IMG/VR virus record: IMGVR_UViG_3300042306_000815
Span: 1-26,532 of that record
DNA: 26,532 nucleotides
Source: a virus
Reading direction: 5' to 3' (one strand)
In this document: positions 3,418 to 20,626 of the stretch, in pieces
Numbering within the stretch: the stretch's first letter is position 1
Layout of the letters: each line of letters begins with the position of its first letter
Notes under the pieces: generated by a model
The model's input: the letters and a program-made list of their open reading frames with translations, nothing else
Database searches by the model: none
Told to the model about the DNA's origin: nothing
Made by a program: the position numbers and the translations under genes

Positions 3418-3447
3418 AATTATTAAAAACTAAAAACATTAACAGAT

Positions 3448-3984
3448 ATGGCTTGTAATTTATCACAGGGAAGACAAGAGGTTTGTAAGGAATCGATAGG
3501 TGGACTTCAAGGAGTTTACTTCATCAATTATACAACCGGTTCTTTCACTAAGAACGGAAGCGGAGAGGTAACAGCATTACCATCCGGCTCAACAGTTTAT
3601 TACTATGAATTGAAGGGCACAAGTGCATATACTGAAACTGTTAACACATCTCGTGAAAATGGTACAACTTTCTTCTCTCAAGAGTTAACTCTTAATTTGA
3701 AGAAATTAACAAACGAAATGACTACTCAATTAAAGCTTATGGCTTATGGTAGACCTCAAATCGTTGTTTGGACTAATAACGGAGATGCATTGTTAGTTGG
3801 GCAAGACCATGGAGCTGATGTTACCGGGGGTACTATTCAAACAGGTGGAGCAATGGGTGACCTTTATGGTTATTCAGTAACTTTCACAGGTATGGAGCAA
3901 TTACCGGCAGCATTCTTATCAGGTTCGACTACAACTAATCCATTCGCTGGATTAAGTGCACAACCAACTATCGTAGGTAACTAA
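3448..3984 (+). CDS. Probable major tail (tube) protein
   Basis: A 178-residue, largely beta-strand protein starting MACNLSQGRQEVCKESIGGL. The layout is a short N-terminal segment, GGLQGVYFINY, a YYYELKGTSAYTETVN strand pair, a TLNLKKLTNEMT helix, then PQIVVWTNNGDALLVGQDHG and GYSVTFTGMEQLPAAFL. This resembles the tail tube proteins of Bacteroidota phages (two sheets plus one helix; the closing strands describe a small-molecule-like field and a final FTGME strand). It is the only gene between two GAAA-loop hairpins, the second of which is a good terminator, so it can be expressed as a discrete transcript at high level, fitting an abundant tube subunit. No promoter of the GTTGTTAT type precedes it, so it is probably read through from the capsid gene. 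Head decoration is an alternative. Confidence 0.5.
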   Translation: MACNLSQGRQEVCKESIGGLQGVYFINYTTGSFTKNGSGEVTALPSGSTVYYYELKGTSAYTETVNTSRENGTTFFSQELTLNLKKLTNEMTTQLKLMAYGRPQIVVWTNNGDALLVGQDHGADVTGGTIQTGGAMGDLYGYSVTFTGMEQLPAAFLSGSTTTNPFAGLSAQPTIVGN

Positions 3985-10539: not shown

Positions 10540-11100
10540 ATGGGACAAACTAATCCAATATACATTCCAACGTTTATAAACAGTGAAGCGTATGCGCCGG
10601 CTAGAGTATTACCTCATATATACTTTTTTAATGGAAACAAACCTTGTAGACCTTTTTGGTTTCAAGGATATAATGATGCAGCTAACACTGTAGTAGCACA
10701 ACAATATAGTTCATTTCCTTATTTTGGAAATTATAGTGGCATCGTTTCAACATCAAATTCAATTTCATTGTTATTCAATAACGAAGAAAGTCCGTATGGT
10801 GATATACCAACTGAATCTCTTTATACAACGTATTGGGAAACCTATATGACTTTATTATATAATCCAAAGACAAGAGTGATAAGTTGTTCAGCTATTATTC
10901 CTTTGGCTAATTATTTTGATATGGAATTAAATGATGTTGTATTTTGGAGAGGGAACTATTATCATTTAAGAGCAATAAATGATTATAATATATCAACAGG
11001 CGAATGTGGTTTACAATTATTAGGTCCAATTATACCTGATACATTACAGGCTTTATTAGGATTAGATTGTAACTTTGATTTTACGGAAAGAACTGCATAA
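10540..11100 (+). CDS. Baseplate protein, probable detached C-terminal part of the hub
   Basis: A 186-residue protein starting one base after the stop of the previous gene, in a different frame. Its C-terminal half, SAIIPLANYFDMELNDVVFW then RGNYYHLRAINDYNISTGEC and LQLLGPI, is the phrase I know as the C-terminal end of large tail proteins in Bacteroidota phages. The arrangement suggests that one ancestral protein is here made as two chains that assemble together. The upstream reading frame is closed by a stop at about 10504, so it cannot be joined by a simple long overlap; a sequencing error is possible but less likely because both ends are clean. Confidence 0.55.
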   Translation: MGQTNPIYIPTFINSEAYAPARVLPHIYFFNGNKPCRPFWFQGYNDAANTVVAQQYSSFPYFGNYSGIVSTSNSISLLFNNEESPYGDIPTESLYTTYWETYMTLLYNPKTRVISCSAIIPLANYFDMELNDVVFWRGNYYHLRAINDYNISTGECGLQLLGPIIPDTLQALLGLDCNFDFTERTA

Positions 11101-11109
11101 AATAAAAAT

Positions 11110-14100
11110 ATGGCAATAAATAAAATAATAACTCTGACAGAAGAAGGACTTAACGCAGGTCCTTACTATGAAGCGTATTACTCAACTGATTGTAGTAATT
11201 ATACATTAGCTACATCATCTTTATATTTGCCTGAAGTTGGTTCAACTGGCAGTATCGTAGTTGCTGACAATACAATTTGTATAAAGTTAGTTAACTTATC
11301 TCCTAATTGTGGATTGAATGATATCGTTTATGATTTCAGAGCAACAACTACTACGACTGTACCCGTTCCGCCTCCGTTTACAACTACTACAACCCAAGGA
11401 CCTACTACTACAACGACTCAAGGACCAACAACAACAACTACTCAAGGACCTTTACCAACAACAACAACGTATGGTCCATCTGCTAGAGTTGTAGCACATA
11501 GTTGTCAAAACTTTTATGATTTTAACACTTATAGAGTTCCAGGTTCACCAACTCCAGAAATTGGAGGAGTTTATATTGATGCATATGGTACTTGCTATTA
11601 TGTAACATCTATACCATCAGACCAAACCCTACCAGGTGTTGGTGATTTAACTTATGTTGGCGCTGAAGGAGCTTGTAGTTCATCTTCGTGTGTTACTACA
11701 ACTACAACAGCTGCACCATATTGTAATCAATGGCAAGTATTCAATAATACAGGCGCTGGATATTCATTCAAATACTATTATTGTGGACAAAATGAAGCCA
11801 CTTATTTAGAAGTTCCTGCTAATACTTCAGTTGTTGTGTGTACACAAAATGATAAAATATATAATTCATTTAATGCACCTTTAACATTTACAAATTTAAA
11901 TACATCGTGTATTGGTACAACTACCACTACAACTATGGCTCCTAATTTGTGGAGAGTTGTTGCGCATGCTTGCCAGGACTTTTACGATTTCAACACTTAT
12001 GGTGTTAATAAAAATATTACAACAACTGTAAACATTGGTGATGTATTTAAAGATTCAACAGGTACTTGTTACTATGTAACTTCAATACCATCTGACCAAA
12101 CGCTTCCTGTTGTCGGGGTTCTATCATATGTTGGTGGCAGTGGTGCTTGTTCATCTTCTGCTTGTGTTACAACTACGACTACGCAATCACCCTTCTGTAA
12201 CACGTGGAAAGTTGAGAACTTAAATGGGTTTGGACAATATTTCAAATATCAATATTGCGGACAGACTGGATACATATATCCTGAAGTAGCTGCTAATAGT
12301 TCGGTAACTGTTTGTGTACAAAACAACAACATATTTAATGCATTCAGTTCATCTTTAGTGTTTACTAATTTATCAACTGTTTGTAATGCAACTACTACAA
12401 CTACTACAACACAAGCGCCTCAAACAATATTTAGAGCAGCACCTTGTGAGAATATATTTAATTTCAACACATATACAGCAGATACATCGCCTTTATTAGT
12501 ATTAGGAGCAATACTGAAAGATAGTTTTGGTACGTGTTATCAAATACTTTCATTCAATGGAACAACTCCCGTTGGTAGTTTAACATATTTAGCTCCTCCA
12601 GGCAATTGTAGTTCTGCACAATGTGTAACTACAACAACTACAATATCTCCGTTTTGTAATACGTGGCAAGTAGAAAATTCATTTGGAGCTGCATATTCAT
12701 TTAAGTACAAATATTGTGGACAGACTGATTTTATATATCCATCAGTTCCTGCATTCACTACTGCAACTTTTTGTGTACAAAACAATGAGATATATAACGC
12801 ATTTGGCGCACCATTAGTATTTACCGATTTATCAGGTTCGTGTCAAGCAACTACGACTACTACTACAACTACATTAGCACCAACTACTACAACTACTACG
12901 ACTAGAGCACCATATTGTGCTATATTTAACGTTGTAAATCAATTTGGCGCAGGATATAATATATCTTATGTGTATTGTGGACAAACTTCAGCACAATTTG
13001 TTGAAGTACCACCATATACTACATCATCATTTTGTGTTCAGAATGCACAAATATCAACATTAGGTAATCCGTTAGTTATTACTGAAACAACATCAAGTTG
13101 CGTTTCAACTACTACGACTACTACAACAACGGCTGCACCTACTACGACTACAACTACGACTAGAGCACCTTATTGTTCAATTTGGAACGCTGAAAATGCA
13201 TTTGGTGCAGGATATACTATTCAGTACACTTATTGTGGAATAACAGGTTCTACATTTGTTGAAGTTCCACCAAATAGTACTATTCAATTATGTGTACAAA
13301 CTGCACAAATTAATACATTAGGCGCACCTATCTTATTAACTGAAACAACATCAAGTTGTGTTCAAACTACAACTACTACGACTACTATTGGTCCAACTAC
13401 TACGACTACATTAGCACCGGGTTGTTGGATATATTTAGCTCAGAATACAGGACTTGGTTCTGCAAATGTTAATTACATAAATTGTGAAGGAACAGGTAGT
13501 GTTTATTCAGTTCCAGCTAGTGGTTCAGTTGAATTATGTGTATTAAACGCACAAATTAGTTCTTCATATTTTCCAATGGTAATTACGAGAACTTCAATTA
13601 GTTGCGCAGGTGGAACTACTACTACAACAACTGCAGCTCCTACTACAACTACTACAACTACAACTGCAGCACCAACAACTACAACTACAACATTACCATT
13701 TGTTGCAAATCAAAAAGTAGTTATTGAAAGTTGTGAAGGACCTGGTGATATTACAACTCCAATTCAATTGGCTGTAAATGGTAATCAATTACAAAATGGT
13801 CAAGTTGTTAAGATATTAGGTGGATTCGCTGGATTAGATTGTTATACAATTACTAATAATAATTGGACAGCAAGTGTAGTTTATAATGCAACAGTAGAAT
13901 ATGTATTTAATGATTGTGAAAGTTGTGCAGTAGGTACAACTACTACAACTCAACCACCAACAACTACAACTGCCGCACCCGCTTCCACATATTGGAGAGC
14001 AGAGTGGTGTTGTGAACCATTCTCATCTTCTATCATAAAAAATGATACAGGTTTGAGTTTTCAAAATTTGGTTGTATGGAATCCTCAAATTAATCAATGT

Positions 14101-16758
14101 ATGAAAGCAGTAGCAACTGTTGCTACTCAATCAGTTTCTTATACTTATAATAGTTCAAACTATTCAACATACGCATTTGGATATGGTGAAGGTGAATGTG
14201 CAAATTGTATTTCATCATCTTTATCAGATGGATGTCCTGAATATGGTATATTTGCTGAATGTTGTAATACTGCATCTACATATGTAGTATATTCAGTATT
14301 TCCTGAAATATTTACAGCAAGTTATGTATTATCTCCAATGAATACATTACAAAATAGTGGAAGTGGTTATCCGATAAATACGTGTTTACAATTCGTATCA
14401 TCAACAACTGCATCTGCTGCTGATATATCAATACTATCAGCTAATGATTTTAGTGGATATAATTTATATGGTAATTATGCTTGGTCAAAAACCAATTGTT
14501 TAGCATCTTATCCGTGTCCAGGTGTAACATACGGATGTTGGAGTACTGCCTCTGTATATTGGACTATATCTACCCCTGAAAAAACTGCCGATATTCGTTG
14601 GTCAAATTGCGAAGGAACAGGATATCAAATTGGTGTAGCCGGCGATGGAGTTTATACAATATCAGATTGTGTTAAATCAGGAAGCATAGATTTTACTACT
14701 GCATTAGGTCCGTATGTTACCGATTTTTCAATATCATATAGTACACAAAGTTGTAATCCAACAACTACAACTACATCGGCGCCACCTACAACAACTACGA
14801 CTACTATTCCACCTGAAACGTTTATAGTAGCAACTGGTGGTATAACTGGCTCATTTACATCCGGAAGTATTACTTACAAATATCATAAGTTTACTTCAGT
14901 TGGAAGTACTTCATTCAATGTATTATCGGGCTACTCATCTCAATCAATAGCATTATTAGTTGGTGGTGGTGGAGCAGGTGGTACAGGTTTATATGATGGA
15001 GATAATTCATTTGCAGGCGGCGGTGGAGCAGGTGGTACTAAATGGTTTACAAATATACAATTATATTCAGGAAGTTATAATGTTGATGTTGGAGCAGGTG
15101 GATATTGGAATTTAGGAATTCAACTCAATGGGGTTGGTTCATATTTGTCTAATGCAGGCTCTACTCCATTTCCATTAAGTTTATCTGTAACAGCCGGTGG
15201 AAAAGGTGGAAATAAAAATTTAGCTGGAGGTTCAGGAGGTTCAGGCGGTGGAGGTGGAAAAAACTCTGCCGGTGGTGCCGGTATTATAAATGAAGGATTC
15301 GCTGGAGCAAATGGTACAGGTCTATTTGCAGGCGGTGGTGGAGGTGCAACTGAAGTGGGTGGACACAATGGTGTTTTATTAGATGGTGGATATGGATTAC
15401 AAACTAATATTGAAGGAACTACTAAATATTTTGGTGGTGGAGGTGGTGGAGCTGCTGGAAGTTCAACAGGCGTTGGTGGACTTGGTGGTGGTGGAAATGG
15501 TCAGTATACTGTAGGTACAAATGGAACTGCGGGTACAGCAAACACCGGAGGTGGTGGAGGTGGAACATCTCGTGCATTTGGAGGTCAAGCTGTTGGTGGT
15601 GCCGGTGGTAGTGGTATTGTTTATATAATATATCCAACAGAAGCTGGACCTACTACAACTACAACAAGTACTACGAGTACGACTACAACTACAACTCAAG
15701 CTCCAACAAAATATTGGAATTTGGTTGGATGTTGTACAAGTGGTTCATACGTTATAGCTGATAATACTACTGGTAATGTATTTGGAGTAAATTATACGTT
15801 ATATAACCCATCGGAGGACCAATGTATGACAGCTGTTTCTTCCGCTACTTCGCAATCTGTAACATTTACACTTACTGATGCAAATATTCAAACTTATGTA
15901 TATGGTGTAAATGGTGTTTATAATCAATGTGATAGATGTATTACATTAGGAAATCACCCTTGCGCTTCTACAACTACAACAACTGCAGGTCCTACAACGA
16001 CTACAACAAGTACTACGAGTACTACGAGTACAACTACAACTGTTGCTCCTACAACGACTACTACAACTGCAGCAATTTCGTTAGTTAGTGGATATAAAGT
16101 TTATTTTGACTTTGGTAATAGTTCATCTTATCCAGGTAGTGGTTCAATTGTAACTAACTTAGGTTCAGCAGGTTCTACTATGAGTGGAAGTTTAGTAAAC
16201 TCTCCAACATATAGTTCATCTAATGGTGGTGTAATGCAATTATCAAAAGCATCAGCTCAATATATTCAGTTTAACACCGCAGTAAGTGCTTCATTTACTA
16301 CTATGTGTATCGTTAAATACAATGGGTCATCTACATCGTGGGGTACAAGCACTACTGATTACAATGGTTTCCCTAACATTAGAGGAACTAATGGTATCAT
16401 TGTTACACCAAATATAGATGGAAATACGCAAGTATTGGCAATTATTTGGAATGGTGCATCTGCGCAAGTTCCATCTGGTAACTTTATTTTCCCATCTGAT
16501 ATTGCAGTATTTAACTCATACGCATATACATCAAATGGAACAAATGAACATAAGATGTATCTAAATACAGGCTCAGCAGCAACTGCGACTAACTCATACA
16601 CAAGAGGTAATTCATCAACTATTACATCTTACATTGGTAGAGATGTTGATAATAACGGATACTTAAATGGATATGTTATGGCATACCTACAATATGATAG
16701 AGTTTTAACTTCAGCTGAAATTGCACAAAACTATTCAGTATTTAGTAGCAGATTTTAA
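11110..16758 (+). CDS. Giant modular tail adhesin: Cys-rich repeats, poly-Thr linkers, polyglycine and lectin-like domains
   Basis: An 1882-residue protein, the largest in the window. Residues 1-77 form an N-terminal beta domain (LTEEGLNAGPYYEAYYSTDC), probably the tail anchor. A Thr/Pro linker (78-124) holds three TTTTTQGP repeats. Three type-A modules (about 126-195, 281-352, 441-507) share CQ-FYDFNTY...GTCYYVTSIPS. Six type-B modules (about 203-269, 361-426, 514-579, 601-666, 687-752, 771-833) share four Cys, including YCGQ and CVQN; a divergent seventh is near 1141-1216. Other Cys-rich modules lie at 862-941, 961-1138 and 1534-1619. Poly-Thr linkers (T5-T8 with AP, RAP or LAP) separate most modules. 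Residues ~1237-1511 are a Gly-rich domain with runs of GGGG, likely a polyglycine-II bundle. Residues 1657-1882 resemble a LamG/concanavalin-like lectin (FDFGN-S, KMYLNTG, IGRDVDNNGYLNG). Role inferred: host-surface adhesin. Confidence 0.75.
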   Translation: MAINKIITLTEEGLNAGPYYEAYYSTDCSNYTLATSSLYLPEVGSTGSIVVADNTICIKLVNLSPNCGLNDIVYDFRATTTTTVPVPPPFTTTTTQGPTTTTTQGPTTTTTQGPLPTTTTYGPSARVVAHSCQNFYDFNTYRVPGSPTPEIGGVYIDAYGTCYYVTSIPSDQTLPGVGDLTYVGAEGACSSSSCVTTTTTAAPYCNQWQVFNNTGAGYSFKYYYCGQNEATYLEVPANTSVVVCTQNDKIYNSFNAPLTFTNLNTSCIGTTTTTTMAPNLWRVVAHACQDFYDFNTYGVNKNITTTVNIGDVFKDSTGTCYYVTSIPSDQTLPVVGVLSYVGGSGACSSSACVTTTTTQSPFCNTWKVENLNGFGQYFKYQYCGQTGYIYPEVAANSSVTVCVQNNNIFNAFSSSLVFTNLSTVCNATTTTTTTQAPQTIFRAAPCENIFNFNTYTADTSPLLVLGAILKDSFGTCYQILSFNGTTPVGSLTYLAPPGNCSSAQCVTTTTTISPFCNTWQVENSFGAAYSFKYKYCGQTDFIYPSVPAFTTATFCVQNNEIYNAFGAPLVFTDLSGSCQATTTTTTTTLAPTTTTTTTRAPYCAIFNVVNQFGAGYNISYVYCGQTSAQFVEVPPYTTSSFCVQNAQISTLGNPLVITETTSSCVSTTTTTTTTAAPTTTTTTTRAPYCSIWNAENAFGAGYTIQYTYCGITGSTFVEVPPNSTIQLCVQTAQINTLGAPILLTETTSSCVQTTTTTTTIGPTTTTTLAPGCWIYLAQNTGLGSANVNYINCEGTGSVYSVPASGSVELCVLNAQISSSYFPMVITRTSISCAGGTTTTTTAAPTTTTTTTTAAPTTTTTTLPFVANQKVVIESCEGPGDITTPIQLAVNGNQLQNGQVVKILGGFAGLDCYTITNNNWTASVVYNATVEYVFNDCESCAVGTTTTTQPPTTTTAAPASTYWRAEWCCEPFSSSIIKNDTGLSFQNLVVWNPQINQCMKAVATVATQSVSYTYNSSNYSTYAFGYGEGECANCISSSLSDGCPEYGIFAECCNTASTYVVYSVFPEIFTASYVLSPMNTLQNSGSGYPINTCLQFVSSTTASAADISILSANDFSGYNLYGNYAWSKTNCLASYPCPGVTYGCWSTASVYWTISTPEKTADIRWSNCEGTGYQIGVAGDGVYTISDCVKSGSIDFTTALGPYVTDFSISYSTQSCNPTTTTTSAPPTTTTTTIPPETFIVATGGITGSFTSGSITYKYHKFTSVGSTSFNVLSGYSSQSIALLVGGGGAGGTGLYDGDNSFAGGGGAGGTKWFTNIQLYSGSYNVDVGAGGYWNLGIQLNGVGSYLSNAGSTPFPLSLSVTAGGKGGNKNLAGGSGGSGGGGGKNSAGGAGIINEGFAGANGTGLFAGGGGGATEVGGHNGVLLDGGYGLQTNIEGTTKYFGGGGGGAAGSSTGVGGLGGGGNGQYTVGTNGTAGTANTGGGGGGTSRAFGGQAVGGAGGSGIVYIIYPTEAGPTTTTTSTTSTTTTTTQAPTKYWNLVGCCTSGSYVIADNTTGNVFGVNYTLYNPSEDQCMTAVSSATSQSVTFTLTDANIQTYVYGVNGVYNQCDRCITLGNHPCASTTTTTAGPTTTTTSTTSTTSTTTTVAPTTTTTTAAISLVSGYKVYFDFGNSSSYPGSGSIVTNLGSAGSTMSGSLVNSPTYSSSNGGVMQLSKASAQYIQFNTAVSASFTTMCIVKYNGSSTSWGTSTTDYNGFPNIRGTNGIIVTPNIDGNTQVLAIIWNGASAQVPSGNFIFPSDIAVFNSYAYTSNGTNEHKMYLNTGSAATATNSYTRGNSSTITSYIGRDVDNNGYLNGYVMAYLQYDRVLTSAEIAQNYSVFSSRF
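11380..11451 (+). repeat. Three tandem TTTTTQGP codon repeats
   Basis: Three perfect copies of an 8-residue unit, 24 bp each, in the first linker of the adhesin. At DNA level the Thr codons vary (ACA, ACT, ACG, ACC), so the repeats are exact in protein but not in DNA. Confidence 0.85.
11713..13608 (+). repeat. Six homologous four-Cys (type-B) modules within the adhesin
   Basis: Modules begin near 11716, 12190, 12650, 12910, 13170 and 13420, each about 65 residues. The pattern is C, about 19 residues, C-G, about 18 residues, C-V-Q-N or similar, about 22 residues, SC. The first three are each preceded by a type-A module, so an A-B pair appears to have been triplicated before the B module expanded alone. 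Module 6 is the most divergent. Confidence 0.8.
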
Positions 16759-16767
16759 TACAAAATA

Positions 16768-16826
16768 AACCTAAGTTGTTATAATAGTATAAATTGGTAT
16801 TTTATGTTATTAAGACAACTTAGGTT
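16768..16826 (+). repeat. Perfect 12-bp inverted repeat around a start codon
   Basis: AACCTAAGTTGT (16768-16779) and ACAACTTAGGTT (16815-16826) are exact reverse complements, 35 nt apart. The left arm overlaps the GTTGTTAT promoter core; the loop holds the ATG at 16804; the right arm is inside codons 4-8 of the glycosyltransferase gene. Confidence 0.85.
16775..16790 (+). promoter_or_regulatory. Candidate late promoter 3 (GTTGTTATAATAGTAT)
   Basis: The exact core GTTGTTAT lies at 16775-16782 with the extended ATAATAGTAT, 21 nt from the core to the ATG at 16804. It is the best representative of the six-site family. Sites 4 and 5 match it at 15 and 13 of 16 positions. Confidence 0.6.
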
Positions 16827-17754
16827 CGTTAGCGCACAGCCCGCAACGAAGTATTACGCATGGCAAGTTGAGGTAATGCTCAACAATTTTATTGAAATGG
16901 GTGTAAACCCAAACTTCATTGATATAGTTTGTTGGAAGCAAGATGGTATAGTCCCAGAAGAATGGGATAAACTTCGTAACCACTACAACTATGTACGTTT
17001 CTTTTTCTATGATGATATGAGAGAAACTAAACATTACATTTCATCAATCAGACCTAATATTTTAAAGCAACATTGGAAAGCACATCCTTACTTAGAGGAT
17101 GAGGTAATCTTTTATCACGATTGCGATATTATTTTTAGTAAGCACATTTCTGAATGGATTACTGAAGATATGATAGCAGATGATTATTGGTATGGTTCAG
17201 ATACTCGTTGGTATATTGCAAACTCATACATCAAAGGAAAAGGTGAAGATGTTTTAAATGCAATGTGTGATGTATTTCAGATTGACCCTAAAGTGGTTGA
17301 AGATAATGAAATGAACGCAATCGGTGCTCAATATATGATGAAAGGTGCTACATACGATTATTGGGATTTAGTTGAAAAAAGATGTGAAGTTCTTTTTAAA
17401 GATATTACAGCTTTAAATGCAAAAAAGAAAACAGAAGACCCATCTTATCACGAATTACAAATATGGTGCGCAGATATGTGGGCAGTATTATGGTTATCTT
17501 GGCAAATGGGTGCTGAAACTCGTTGTCATCCTAACTTAGAGTTCAGTTGGGGTACTTCTACTGAAGATGATTTCTATAAATTAAATATAATGCATAATGC
17601 AGGAGTAGTAACTTCAGCTGATGGATTGTTTTATAAAGCTGGATATATGAATGATTACCCTTACTTTAAAGATTTAAAAATAGCTGATAATACGGCATCT
17701 AAAAAATATTACGAATGGATTCAAAAGATAGAAAAGATAACATGCTTAAAATAA
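16804..17754 (+). CDS. Glycosyltransferase-like protein (GT-A type, DCD motif)
   Basis: A 316-residue protein, probably a sugar-nucleotide-dependent glycosyltransferase. FYHDCDIIFS near residues 103-112 gives a D106-C-D108 motif at the end of a hydrophobic strand, the usual metal/nucleotide-sugar site of GT-A enzymes. Further on, LQIWCADMWAVLW and a late MHNAGV (263-268) fit the acceptor-side acid residues and the C-terminal His seen in several GT-A families. The N-terminal ~100 residues (FVSAQPATKYYAWQVEVMLNN, then a strand/helix pattern) fit a Rossmann-like half. The gene lies behind the Thr-rich adhesin, has its own candidate promoter, and overlaps the next glycosyltransferase-like gene. 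No signal peptide, so it acts in the cytoplasm. Substrate unknown; the adhesin or the host surface are possibilities. Confidence 0.6.
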   Translation: MLLRQLRFVSAQPATKYYAWQVEVMLNNFIEMGVNPNFIDIVCWKQDGIVPEEWDKLRNHYNYVRFFFYDDMRETKHYISSIRPNILKQHWKAHPYLEDEVIFYHDCDIIFSKHISEWITEDMIADDYWYGSDTRWYIANSYIKGKGEDVLNAMCDVFQIDPKVVEDNEMNAIGAQYMMKGATYDYWDLVEKRCEVLFKDITALNAKKKTEDPSYHELQIWCADMWAVLWLSWQMGAETRCHPNLEFSWGTSTEDDFYKLNIMHNAGVVTSADGLFYKAGYMNDYPYFKDLKIADNTASKKYYEWIQKIEKITCLK

Positions 17755-18617
17755 ATAAAGCCACATATGGTGGAGAAGATTGTACTAAATTAATACAATC
17801 AAAAATAAAGGGTAATAGACTCGTTTTAAGAGCAGATAATAATTTAATAGGTGATGTTATGCCTGGAGTGGTAAAGTATCTTCAAATCACAGGAGAATAC
17901 GAAGGAGAGCCATTTGCACACTCGATTAAGGAAGGTAACTTAATAACACTACCAAAAACTAAATTAAATAGATTAGGTATATTTTATTCAAATAATAATA
18001 ATCATGCTATTTGGCCCGCTATTGAGAAATCATTAGATACAATTAAAACGGCTGCTGAAGGTAAAGCTGATATTATATCGTGTATGTGGAATCCAATGCC
18101 AAACAATCCGTTTCATCAATTGCAAAGTTGGTACACATCACAATCGCATTTAAATCAATTACTTCAAATAATGCAATGTTTATATTCAGCTAAAGAAATG
18201 GGAGGGTATGAATATGTTTCATTCTTAGAGCACGATGTAATGTATGCTGAAGGACACTTTGATTATGATGAGTTTGAAAGTGGACAAGTTTTAACTAATA
18301 TGAACTATGGTGGATTATGTAGAACAGGTTGGCAACATAAAGGACAATCAGATGAGCCATTCCATCAAATGACAATGAGGTTTGATGATGCTATTCAGCA
18401 TTGCTTACATATTTTACCAAATGCATTGGTAACAAATAGTGGTATGATTGAAACTCAAAAATTAAAAAGAATTCGTTGGGAATCTCCTAATGAATCAATT
18501 CATATCAATCACGGTGTACATTTTACATCGCATAATTCAATTTACAAAAAAACCGATATTTACCCAGGTCATCCATATTGGGGCGAATATACTGAATACC
18601 TTCACTTATTTAATTAA
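17742..18617 (+). CDS. Glycosyltransferase-like protein with N-terminal DUF3395-like domain
   Basis: I choose the ATG at 17742 over 17715: the shorter form starts MLKINKATYGGEDCTKLIQS, which matches the start of DUF3395-like domains (I-x-KATYGG-x-DVT), overlaps the previous gene by only 13 nt, and gives 291 residues. Residues 1-72 are this beta domain, with NNLIGDVMPGVVKYLQI as its usual second half. Residues ~76-291 look like a GT-A domain: LGIFYSNNN, then YVSFLEHDVMYAEG (E163-H-D165, a DxD-like site), MNYGGLCRTGW, and GVHFTSHNSIY. Together with the preceding gene it forms a two-gene unit. Role inferred: sugar transfer, with the DUF3395-like part possibly guiding it. The acidic EHD in place of DxD leaves the catalytic details open. 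Confidence 0.6.
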   Translation: MLKINKATYGGEDCTKLIQSKIKGNRLVLRADNNLIGDVMPGVVKYLQITGEYEGEPFAHSIKEGNLITLPKTKLNRLGIFYSNNNNHAIWPAIEKSLDTIKTAAEGKADIISCMWNPMPNNPFHQLQSWYTSQSHLNQLLQIMQCLYSAKEMGGYEYVSFLEHDVMYAEGHFDYDEFESGQVLTNMNYGGLCRTGWQHKGQSDEPFHQMTMRFDDAIQHCLHILPNALVTNSGMIETQKLKRIRWESPNESIHINHGVHFTSHNSIYKKTDIYPGHPYWGEYTEYLHLFN

Positions 18618-18638: not shown

Positions 18639-18780
18639 GATAAGGAATGTAATAGATATGCTTCAATTTTCAGAATTCGAAAAGAGTAATGAAAGAATAG
18701 CAATAGCAAAAGGAAAATATGCTATACCTTACACATACACACAACTAAAAAAGTTAATTAAACGAGTTTGGTATGGCTGA
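18637..18780 (+). CDS. Small ORF before the tape measure
   Basis: A 47-residue reading frame starting MIRNVIDMLQFSEFEKSNER and ending YTYTQLKKLIKRVWYG (stop TGA); an internal ATG at 18658 would give 40 residues. Its stop codon overlaps the start of the tape-measure gene by 8 nt (18773-18780), an arrangement that couples translation. In siphophages the gene just before the tape measure usually encodes a tail-assembly chaperone, but those are larger, so this is positional reasoning only. Helical and basic at its end; no family recognised. Confidence 0.5.
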   Translation: MIRNVIDMLQFSEFEKSNERIAIAKGKYAIPYTYTQLKKLIKRVWYG

Positions 18781-20626
18781 TAATACAACCACATATACTA
18801 CCATTGTTGATGTTGAAGTAAAAGGAGAAAAGGCATTAGATAACTTAGGCAACTCTGCCGAAGAGACTGGTGATAAGTTTACCCGATTACAAAGACAGAT
18901 ACGAGATACTGCTACCGCAATGCAGAAAGCTGCGGAGACAGGTGATAGTGTAAAGTTCAATGCATTAAAAGGGCAATTGGATGATTTAGAAGATAAGTTG
19001 GAAATAACAACTTTAAAATCTAAACAATTTGATGATGCCTTAGTAGGTATGCCTGGTCCTGCCGGTCAAGCCGGTCAAGCTATTAAAATGCTTGATGGTG
19101 GATTGAAAGCTATGATAGCTAACCCCGTTGTTGCAACTATCGCAGCAATAGTCGGAGTATTTTTGTTGTTTAAAAAATCTTTAGAATCAACATCCGAAGG
19201 ACAAGAAACCCTTAATAGAATTTCAGCAGCATTTGGTAAGATATTAGGTCCTATTTTGGCTACCATCGAAGCAGTTGCTTTACCTTTATTTGAAGGATTC
19301 GCAGTTGTATTAGAAAAAGTAGGAGCAGGATTTGCATGGGTTGCTGAAAAGTTAGGTATATCTAAGAAAAAGATTGATGAAGCATCTTCAGGTATTAAAG
19401 ATTTCAAAAAGCATAATGAGGATTTAGCTAAAGCAGAAAAGGATGCAGCTGATAAACGTGTAGCAGCATCTAAAGCAGCATCTGAACAAAGAAAGAAAGA
19501 AGCTGAAGAAGCTAAGAAGAGATTAGAAGAACAAAAGAAGAATAAGCAAGAGCAAATTAATATTGATGAATCATTAGAAGAATCTGCTACTAAGCTTGGA
19601 CAAGCTAGAGCAAGAATTACTGATGATAGAATTAAACAATTAAATCAGGAGCAAACATTTGCAGATGCTAACTATCAAAGAGAAGTTAAACGTATCAATG
19701 ATTTATTAGCAGTTGAAAGAACTACTGCCGATGAAAGAAAGAAATTACTTACTGAAAAGAATAACTTAGAAGCTCAATATATTACCGATAATCAAAATAG
19801 ACAAACGGCGGTAAATGATGAGAATAAAAAGAGAACTGATGAAGCTAATAAGAGAGCAGAGGATGATAAAAAGAAAGCAGAAGAAGATGCTCAACTTAAA
19901 TTAGAATTAGAATCAACTGCTAGAGCAGATAAAGCAGCTTTATTAGTTGCTGATTATGAATATGAAAATACTCTTAAAGCACAATCATTTCAAGCAGAGT
20001 TAGATTTATTTGATAATGTAAGAAAATTAGAAAGAGATAACCTACAAGCTAATAAAGCATCAGCTGATGCATTACTTGCATTTGATAAGGAAACTGCGGC
20101 AAGTAGAATACAAATAGAAAGAGCTCAGCAAGAAACTAAATTAGCAATTATATCAGATGCATTAGGTACAATTGCAGATGCAGTTGGTAGAGAAACAGCC
20201 GCTGGAAAGACTCTCGCTATCGCACAAGCAACTATTAATACCTATATGGGTGCTACCAAAGCATTGGCTACATATCCGCCTCCATTTGGTGCAATTGCGG
20301 CAGGTACTGTAATATTAGCAGGTTTATTGCAAGTTAAAAAGATTATAAGTACTAAATTGCCTGATATACCTAAACCAGGTGGTGGTTCAGCTTCAACAGG
20401 TGGTGGAGGAGGCAGTGCACCATCTATTACGATGCCGCCAGTACCAACAATACCAACGTTAACTGCGCCAGGTGTAACTGCTACGGGTGGAACAAACCCA
20501 ACACAACAAATAGCAGGTACATTATCAGCAGCAACAAACAAACCGATTAAAGCTTATGTAGTGAGTGGAGATGTATCATCACAACAGGCATTAGATAGAA
20601 GAACTTCTAAAGCAGCTACATTTTAA
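18773..20626 (+). CDS. Tape measure protein
   Basis: A 617-residue protein that sets tail length and probably helps DNA exit. Residues 1-90 are helical; hydrophobic segments lie at about 115-133 (ANPVVATIAAIVGVFLLF) and 155-190 (ILATIEAVALPLFEGFA...); a charged coiled-coil rod spans about 205-440, rich in Lys, Glu and Ala. A further hydrophobic segment lies near residues 500-530 (GAIAAGTVILAGLL), then a Gly/Pro-rich linker. The end, NKPIKAYVVSGDVSSQQALD, matches the C-terminus of tape-measure proteins in Bacteroidota phages, where the tail end carries a conserved AYVV strand. At about 1.5 A per residue it implies a tail near 90 nm, a rough estimate. Translation is coupled to the small ORF before it. 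Confidence 0.8.
   Translation: MADNTTTYTTIVDVEVKGEKALDNLGNSAEETGDKFTRLQRQIRDTATAMQKAAETGDSVKFNALKGQLDDLEDKLEITTLKSKQFDDALVGMPGPAGQAGQAIKMLDGGLKAMIANPVVATIAAIVGVFLLFKKSLESTSEGQETLNRISAAFGKILGPILATIEAVALPLFEGFAVVLEKVGAGFAWVAEKLGISKKKIDEASSGIKDFKKHNEDLAKAEKDAADKRVAASKAASEQRKKEAEEAKKRLEEQKKNKQEQINIDESLEESATKLGQARARITDDRIKQLNQEQTFADANYQREVKRINDLLAVERTTADERKKLLTEKNNLEAQYITDNQNRQTAVNDENKKRTDEANKRAEDDKKKAEEDAQLKLELESTARADKAALLVADYEYENTLKAQSFQAELDLFDNVRKLERDNLQANKASADALLAFDKETAASRIQIERAQQETKLAIISDALGTIADAVGRETAAGKTLAIAQATINTYMGATKALATYPPPFGAIAAGTVILAGLLQVKKIISTKLPDIPKPGGGSASTGGGGGSAPSITMPPVPTIPTLTAPGVTATGGTNPTQQIAGTLSAATNKPIKAYVVSGDVSSQQALDRRTSKAATF

Follow-up and report, generated by a model that had tools for sequence, protein, structure and literature searches.

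We propose that the poly-Thr linkers of P0001, an 1882-aa modular adhesin coded in the tail region of a phage, are O-glycosylated by enzymes of the phage itself, with the predicted glycosyltransferase GT1 initiating the glycan and variable genes downstream of it extending it, which would give the virion a mucin-like surface; we put the probability of this reading at roughly 0.77. The stretch of DNA analysed here, hereafter the window, corresponds to a virus record of 26.5 kb in IMG/VR. Its portal and tail genes have their nearest cultured relatives among Nonlabens phages, which points to a host in the Bacteroidota.

P0001 lies between two conserved tail genes on one side and the tape measure gene on the other (Table 1); its position between a tail/baseplate-like gene and the tape measure gene agrees with the earlier note on this DNA, in which it had been read as a modular adhesin in a phage tail. 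The first of the conserved genes, coding for 706 aa, is 49-71% identical to its counterparts in three related loci (L003, L004, and L005), has 290 relatives in IMG/VR, and shows distant similarity to Nonlabens phage P12024L. The second one (“bp”) is fused at its C-end to adhesin modules in relatives, with or without poly-Thr. Directly 3′ of P0001, 45 bases after its stop codon, comes GT1, which the earlier note had overlooked.

The large Cys-rich modular chain with poly-Thr linkers described in that note is indeed a single ORF, with no competing ORF in the way of its frame. Thr accounts for 329 of the 1882 residues and forms 29 runs of at least four, against a mean of 1.4 and a maximum of 5 in 500 residue shuffles; with these runs, P0001 displays the repeated Thr/Ser/Pro-rich segments of the PTS type. 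An N-terminal module is followed by three A-B pairs, three more B modules, and a divergent A module; next come a composite rich in Cys, a Gly-rich domain, one more Cys-rich module, and, last, the C-terminal domain. This amounts to three A modules (plus a divergent one) and six B modules (plus a divergent one), the ten clean single-module segments having exactly 4 Cys each. By eye, modules of a third type can be recognised in the composite and again near residues 1530-1620; given these two regions, the 10-12 modules counted earlier are a slightly low figure for a chain that is modular as described. As for similarities, a phrog_2295 match extends across residues 723-1526, and PF21722 covers the Gly-rich domain; tblastn against cultured phages gave no match to P0001, and no Pfam family matched its C-terminal domain.

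Table 1. Features of the window discussed in the text, with the corresponding residues of P0001 where given.
Feature	Position	Strand	P0001 residues	Remarks
Conserved 706-aa tail gene, upstream of P0001	8418..10538	+		Anchor for unbiased sample
186-aa conserved tail/baseplate-like protein (bp)	10540..11100	+		
P0001, 1882-aa modular poly-Thr/Cys-rich tail adhesin	11110..16758	+		ATG to stop
First poly-Thr linker	11344..11469	+		TTTTTQGP repeats
A module 1	11470..11694	+	121-195	4 Cys
B module 1	11710..11916	+	201-269	4 Cys
A module 2	11935..12168	+	276-353	
B module 2	12184..12390	+	359-427	
A module 3	12412..12627	+	435-506	
B module 3	12643..12849	+	512-580	
Poly-Thr linker	12850..12903	+		
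B module 4	12904..13107	+	599-666	
Poly-Thr linker	13108..13161	+		
B module 5	13162..13365	+	685-752	65% identical to B4, window-specific duplicate
Poly-Thr linker	13366..13410	+		
B module 6	13411..13614	+	768-835	
Poly-Thr linker	13615..13692	+		
Divergent A-type module (A4)	13693..13935	+	862-942	
Cys-rich composite	13972..14760	+	955-1217	15 Cys; two third-type modules (by eye) and divergent B
Gly-rich domain PF21722	14896..15633	+	1263-1508	E = 2e-12
Third-type Cys-rich module (by eye)	15697..15969	+	1530-1620	6 Cys
Last poly-Thr/Ser linker	15970..16068	+		
C-terminal ~229-aa domain	16069..16755	+		Close relatives in L004, L005, L006
GT1, predicted GT-A glycosyltransferase	16804..17754	+		PHROG 4417; proposed initiator on poly-Thr
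Second cassette gene	17742..18617	+		Likely start ATG 17742
Tape measure protein	18773..20626	+		

GT1 belongs to PHROG 4417, a family annotated as of unknown function. Searches of 45 members and of the Gram-positive homologues against Pfam and NCBIfam gave no consistent match, and a sequence-profile search of the PDB found nothing. The predicted structure (AlphaFold pLDDT 96.6) is a compact globular GT-A over the whole length, for which the best-ranked solved structures in Foldseek are UGGT, glycogenin, LARGE1, LgtC, and COLGALT1 (E 1e-7 to 2e-5); named viral structure matches are mostly glycosyltransferases, several of them annotated as family 8. The DxD motif (D106 and D108) does not vary among 45 sequences taken from viral contigs or among 16 diverse members, and the invariant set D106, D108, G174-A175-Q176, Q219, and H264 extends from Bacteroidota-type to Gram-positive phages. 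Fold and DxD motif thus both place GT1 among GT-A glycosyltransferases, an assignment in which we are confident on the strength of the predicted fold; sequence models assign it to no named family, be it GT8 or another curated one. GT1 was also found at seven loci in prokaryote genome contigs, mostly Bacteroidota MAGs, which are probably phage pieces.

In order to compare the occurrence of GT1 and poly-Thr, we collected loci from viral contigs by means of the upstream tail gene and the 186-aa gene, a choice that is blind to both Thr runs and GT1, and counted the 78 distinct loci that are complete to the tape measure gene. Poly-Thr and GT1 are found together in 27 loci and are both missing from 50; one locus (L076) has poly-Thr only, and none has GT1 only. 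On the tail-gene tree, the two traits change 13 and 12 times, and independent pairs are concordant in 10 cases, opposite in none, and undecided in one (p = 0.002). The sole poly-Thr locus without GT1 (L076 7050-7931) comes from a partial contig, of which 13 kb were examined, and an enzyme might still lie elsewhere. At L125 and L160, the poly-Thr near GT1 is weak.

When only the loci with a C-terminal adhesin extension are considered, GT1 is present in 27/28 with poly-Thr versus 0/28 without it; GT1, therefore, does not simply follow adhesins. Nor does it follow Thr content or Cys modules, since Thr still makes up 12-17% of the run-less extensions that we inspected, of which some are Cys-rich (L029, L060, and L182), and GT1 is missing from all of these loci; that GT1 tracks the Thr runs and not the Cys modules is a second point that the earlier note had missed. 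In L005, the C-terminal domain of P0001 (66%) is carried by a run-less chain, and GT1 is absent. The near-isogenic loci L073 and L069, whose tail genes are 0.02 changes per site apart and whose bp N-termini are nearly identical, differ in the interval from the tail gene to the tape measure gene: the former has a poly-Thr extension and GT1, the latter an unrelated extension and no GT1. The predicted glycosyltransferase gene is linked to virion structural genes, as for an enzyme of virion glycosylation.

Homologues of GT1 occur in 74 cultured phage records, mostly annotated as hypothetical and nearly all from phages of Gram-positive hosts, mainly lactobacilli, enterococci, staphylococci, and lactococci; among the matches listed, they are 28-34% identical to GT1 with coverage above 90%. 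In these phages, GT1 often comes directly behind a major tail or head gene. All 13 GT1 phages inspected have Thr-rich segments on proteins of the virion region, mostly C-terminal tags on major tail or head proteins, such as gp45 (...TTTTTKPTTTTTKPTTTTTTTQG) and gp50 (...TTTTTSTTTTTTSSTTTTTTTQASSK) of phiFL1A, orf10 and orf13 (...TTTTTTTTTTHHD) of 1706, or gp071/gp072 of Iacchus; PLE3, VPE25, bIL285, SA2, and CHPC836 are tagged as well. The tag of phage 9183, which is included in the 13, is short and broken (TTTDPVTTTSTT); this phage and L429 were considered as exceptions to the GT1/poly-Thr rule and dropped, as shorter or interrupted Thr tags are present. A nearby Thr tag is absent from 10/10 GT1-less records, namely Nonlabens P12024L and nine records with a relative of the tail protein of phiFL1A. 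Over whole records, poly-Thr is found in 11/11 with GT1 versus 1/10 without it (a single tract, in Bassarid), and a separate scan sampled on the tail protein found GT1 in 13/13 tagged versus 0/50 untagged cases, with about three independent switches.

Two layouts among these phages deserve mention in their own right. In Arcanobacterium phage TPWB06 (L461 4600-4960), the Thr-tagged major tail gene is overlapped by an ORF in another frame with a much longer poly-Thr, and the layout of SA2 (L459) is similar; judging from the TPWB06 sequence, a programmed frameshift leading to a minor, long-tagged tail protein is possible. In prophage bIL285 (L456, about 3440-3500), the major head gene is followed, immediately behind its stop codon, by an in-frame NDKTTTTTTRHD and a second stop, just ahead of GT1, possibly a stop read-through tag or a decayed tag.

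GT1 and poly-Thr can also be apart. Four phages of about 58-66 kb in which GT1 is not beside poly-Thr have 21-31 poly-Thr tracts elsewhere, versus 0-5 of the reversed pattern, in ORFs of 1273-1618 aa and their shorter neighbours. GT1 is directly behind poly-Thr ORFs in the large contigs L090, L117, and L163, and no poly-Thr tract was seen in several shorter GT1-bearing records, which are fragments. A DNA-pattern scan found poly-Thr proteins to be common in unrelated viral contigs (L248-L327, among the matches listed). Outside the phage family, a cassette-type gene is present within a few kb in 23/73 poly-Thr fragments, again among the matches listed; as many unrelated loci have no such gene nearby, poly-Thr must also exist with other enzymes or with none.

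One has to be cautious mainly about the linked transfer of neighbouring genes, as GT1 and poly-Thr genes are usually adjacent and the association is therefore due in part to their joint transfer as a block; this account is weakened, though not removed, by the cases in trans and by the conservation of GT1 beside entirely different modules. A rival explanation is a cassette that glycosylates the folded modules or other structural proteins, poly-Thr being a plain flexible spacer travelling along; it is favoured by genes that are neighbours in the majority of phages and are exchanged together, and by the plentiful Ser and Asn of P0001 outside the Thr runs. We nonetheless hold it to be improbable: the Gram-positive tags are on unrelated proteins (major head, major tail, protease), GT1-less relatives have similar cores without the tag, relatives with modules and without runs are also without GT1 (the 27/28 versus 0/28 above), and the modules next to GT1 can be entirely different, which leaves the Thr runs as the shared feature.

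Behind GT1, the gene content changes from phage to phage, with many genes of glycan biosynthesis: GT2, GT6, GT11, GT25, Gly_transf_sug (DXD sugar transferases), and PF11397, as well as FkbM and TylF methyltransferases, NAD epimerase, and APS kinase. GT1 is taken as the initiator because it is the sole cassette gene in some loci, such as L073. In the window, it is followed by a second cassette gene whose relatives come after GT1 in many cassettes and whose residues from about 14 to 50 resemble L-rhamnose-binding lectins (5h4s, profile E = 2e-8); the remaining ~230 aa matched no family, only 4 loci were found with this gene as a query in viral contigs, and profile comparison showed it to be unrelated to GT1. 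A by-eye reading of this gene as a glycosyltransferase was supported by no tool and was dropped. We also observed an APS kinase, an NAD sugar epimerase, and a radical SAM/SPASM protein behind GT1 (L133 13870-14337; L123 12277-13056; L115 10962-11987), the gene content of such cassettes hinting at sulfated or otherwise unusual glycans.

Many phage glycosyltransferases modify the host surface, and cassette members do resemble LPS and capsule enzymes (GT25, Caps_synth), so that the enzymes could be thought to serve serotype conversion or superinfection exclusion instead of modifying the virion. This seems quite unlikely to us, considering that GT1 is predicted to be a compact globular GT-A from end to end, that the genes are inside a structural operon, and that, across very different hosts, it is Thr runs of virion proteins that GT1 accompanies.

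The Cys modules had inspired another view of P0001, that of an unglycosylated fibre, stiffened by disulfides that would form after release, in which poly-Thr is mere spacing and codon mixing counteracts slippage. The observations behind it have stood up well. A and B modules keep four Cys within the chain and across loci, homologous modules of other phages (70 B-type segments from 32 loci and 36 A-type segments from 20 loci) having mostly 4; the even number seen in each B module (4 Cys) extends to most homologous segments, and Cys-containing segments below 110 aa are even in 179 cases versus odd in 38, these segments being related and not independent. The proposed history, a pair triplication and then single duplication, is borne out as well: each A-B pair of the window best matches the same-position pair in L003 (B1 70%, B2 80%, and B3 75%), and the triplication, therefore, predates the split between the two, while B4 and B5 (65% alike) have no positional counterpart in L003 and must be a later duplication. 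Thr codons are mixed beyond chance, with 35/136 identical neighbours for a shuffle mean of 55 (P = 0.0006) and a longest run of one codon of 3 (P = 0.004). A structural model of A+B (pLDDT 84.6) predicts two beta domains with a low-confidence Thr linker between them, for which solved structures offered no significant fold match (best E 0.43). Conserved and mostly even Cys counts and codon alternation are what such a fibre would have, yet it leaves unexplained why GT1 is present or absent together with the Thr runs, and we see very little chance that it is the whole answer; disulfides and glycosylation are compatible, and both may occur in the same protein. The word “mucin-like” in the earlier note was in fact more apt than its author knew, as the poly-Thr linkers go together with a glycosyltransferase. 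Least likely of all, GT1 would glycosylate modified bases of phage DNA, DNA glucosylation being a role on record for phage glycosyltransferases (PMC12619734); DNA modification would not be expected to follow the presence of poly-Thr in tail and head proteins, and GT1 is positioned in the structural module.

In our preferred reading, the glycosylation of poly-Thr, GT1 would recognise Thr runs (linkers here, C-terminal tags in phages of Gram-positive hosts) and add the first sugar, before or during tail assembly. By the established biology of phage assembly, and since a phage has no secretory pathway, this O-glycosylation would have to take place in the host cytoplasm. The variable genes after GT1 (glycosyltransferases, methyltransferases, epimerase, and APS kinase) would then extend and decorate the glycan, turning the linkers into a mucin-like bottle-brush, that is, stiff, protease-resistant spacers that would hold the binding domains of P0001 apart and present a variable glycan surface. 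We infer that protein is the substrate of GT1, with Thr as the acceptor; the nature of the sugar, the sequence of the steps, and a function at the cell surface, in adsorption, are inferred as well. It is fairly likely that PHROG 4417 is a general writer, glycosylating any virion protein with a Thr run, be it a linker or a C-terminal tag. Such a writer could reasonably be expected to account for cis and trans arrangements, in Bacteroidota and Gram-positive hosts alike, with swappable downstream genes setting the glycan; the Thr tag would then rather probably be a portable glycosylation signal comparable to a sequon.

If the proposal is true, a widespread phage gene family that had been left unannotated acquires a function, the poly-Thr tails seen on major tail and head proteins are accounted for, and glycosylated virions become predictable from the sequence alone, for example, in phages of Lactococcus, Lactobacillus, Enterococcus, and Staphylococcus that are in culture; it would also make available a compact O-glycosylation system that works in the cytoplasm and reads a simple peptide signal. 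The near-perfect association in two separate phage groups, with the GT1 family found almost exclusively in phages that have poly-Thr on particle proteins, suggests that a mucin-like coat of sugars, made by dedicated enzymes, covers the virions of many phages. It has been reported that virion glycans influence how the immune system recognises phages, and adsorption and stability may be influenced too, hence a relevance to phage biology generally, if the proposal is true. In the open-access literature, our searches yielded nothing on a poly-Thr signal served by a dedicated enzyme, nor on mucin-like or Thr-rich glycosylated phage proteins, which is weak evidence of novelty.

Several known systems share features with the one proposed here. 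P0001 has a model match in common with phage Gly-rich domain proteins (PF21722), this domain being one of many in the chain. GT1 shares its predicted fold and DxD motif with GT8-like GT-A enzymes (glycogenin, LgtC, and LARGE; also UGGT and COLGALT1), from which it differs, as from other GT-A enzymes, by an identity of about 10%, TM-scores of 0.4-0.6, and a separate family (PHROG 4417). Eukaryotic mucins and PTS domains likewise have segments rich in Thr (with Ser and Pro) between Cys-rich domains, and an O-glycan bottle-brush, which for P0001 is proposed only; unlike them, P0001 is a phage protein, and the sequence of its proposed enzyme shows no relation to a Pfam family. That phage enzymes can glycosylate virions is itself already known: mycobacteriophage virions are glycosylated by phage-encoded glycosyltransferases (Freeman et al. 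2023, cited in PMC12619734), the glycans being reported at the C-terminal ends of tail tube and capsid subunits, proteins of the kinds that bear Thr tags in Gram-positive phages. Mycobacterium phages are absent from the GT1 search matches among cultured phages. In contrast to the mycobacteriophage system, the acceptor here would be a recognisable poly-Thr tag or linker, present also in a giant modular adhesin.
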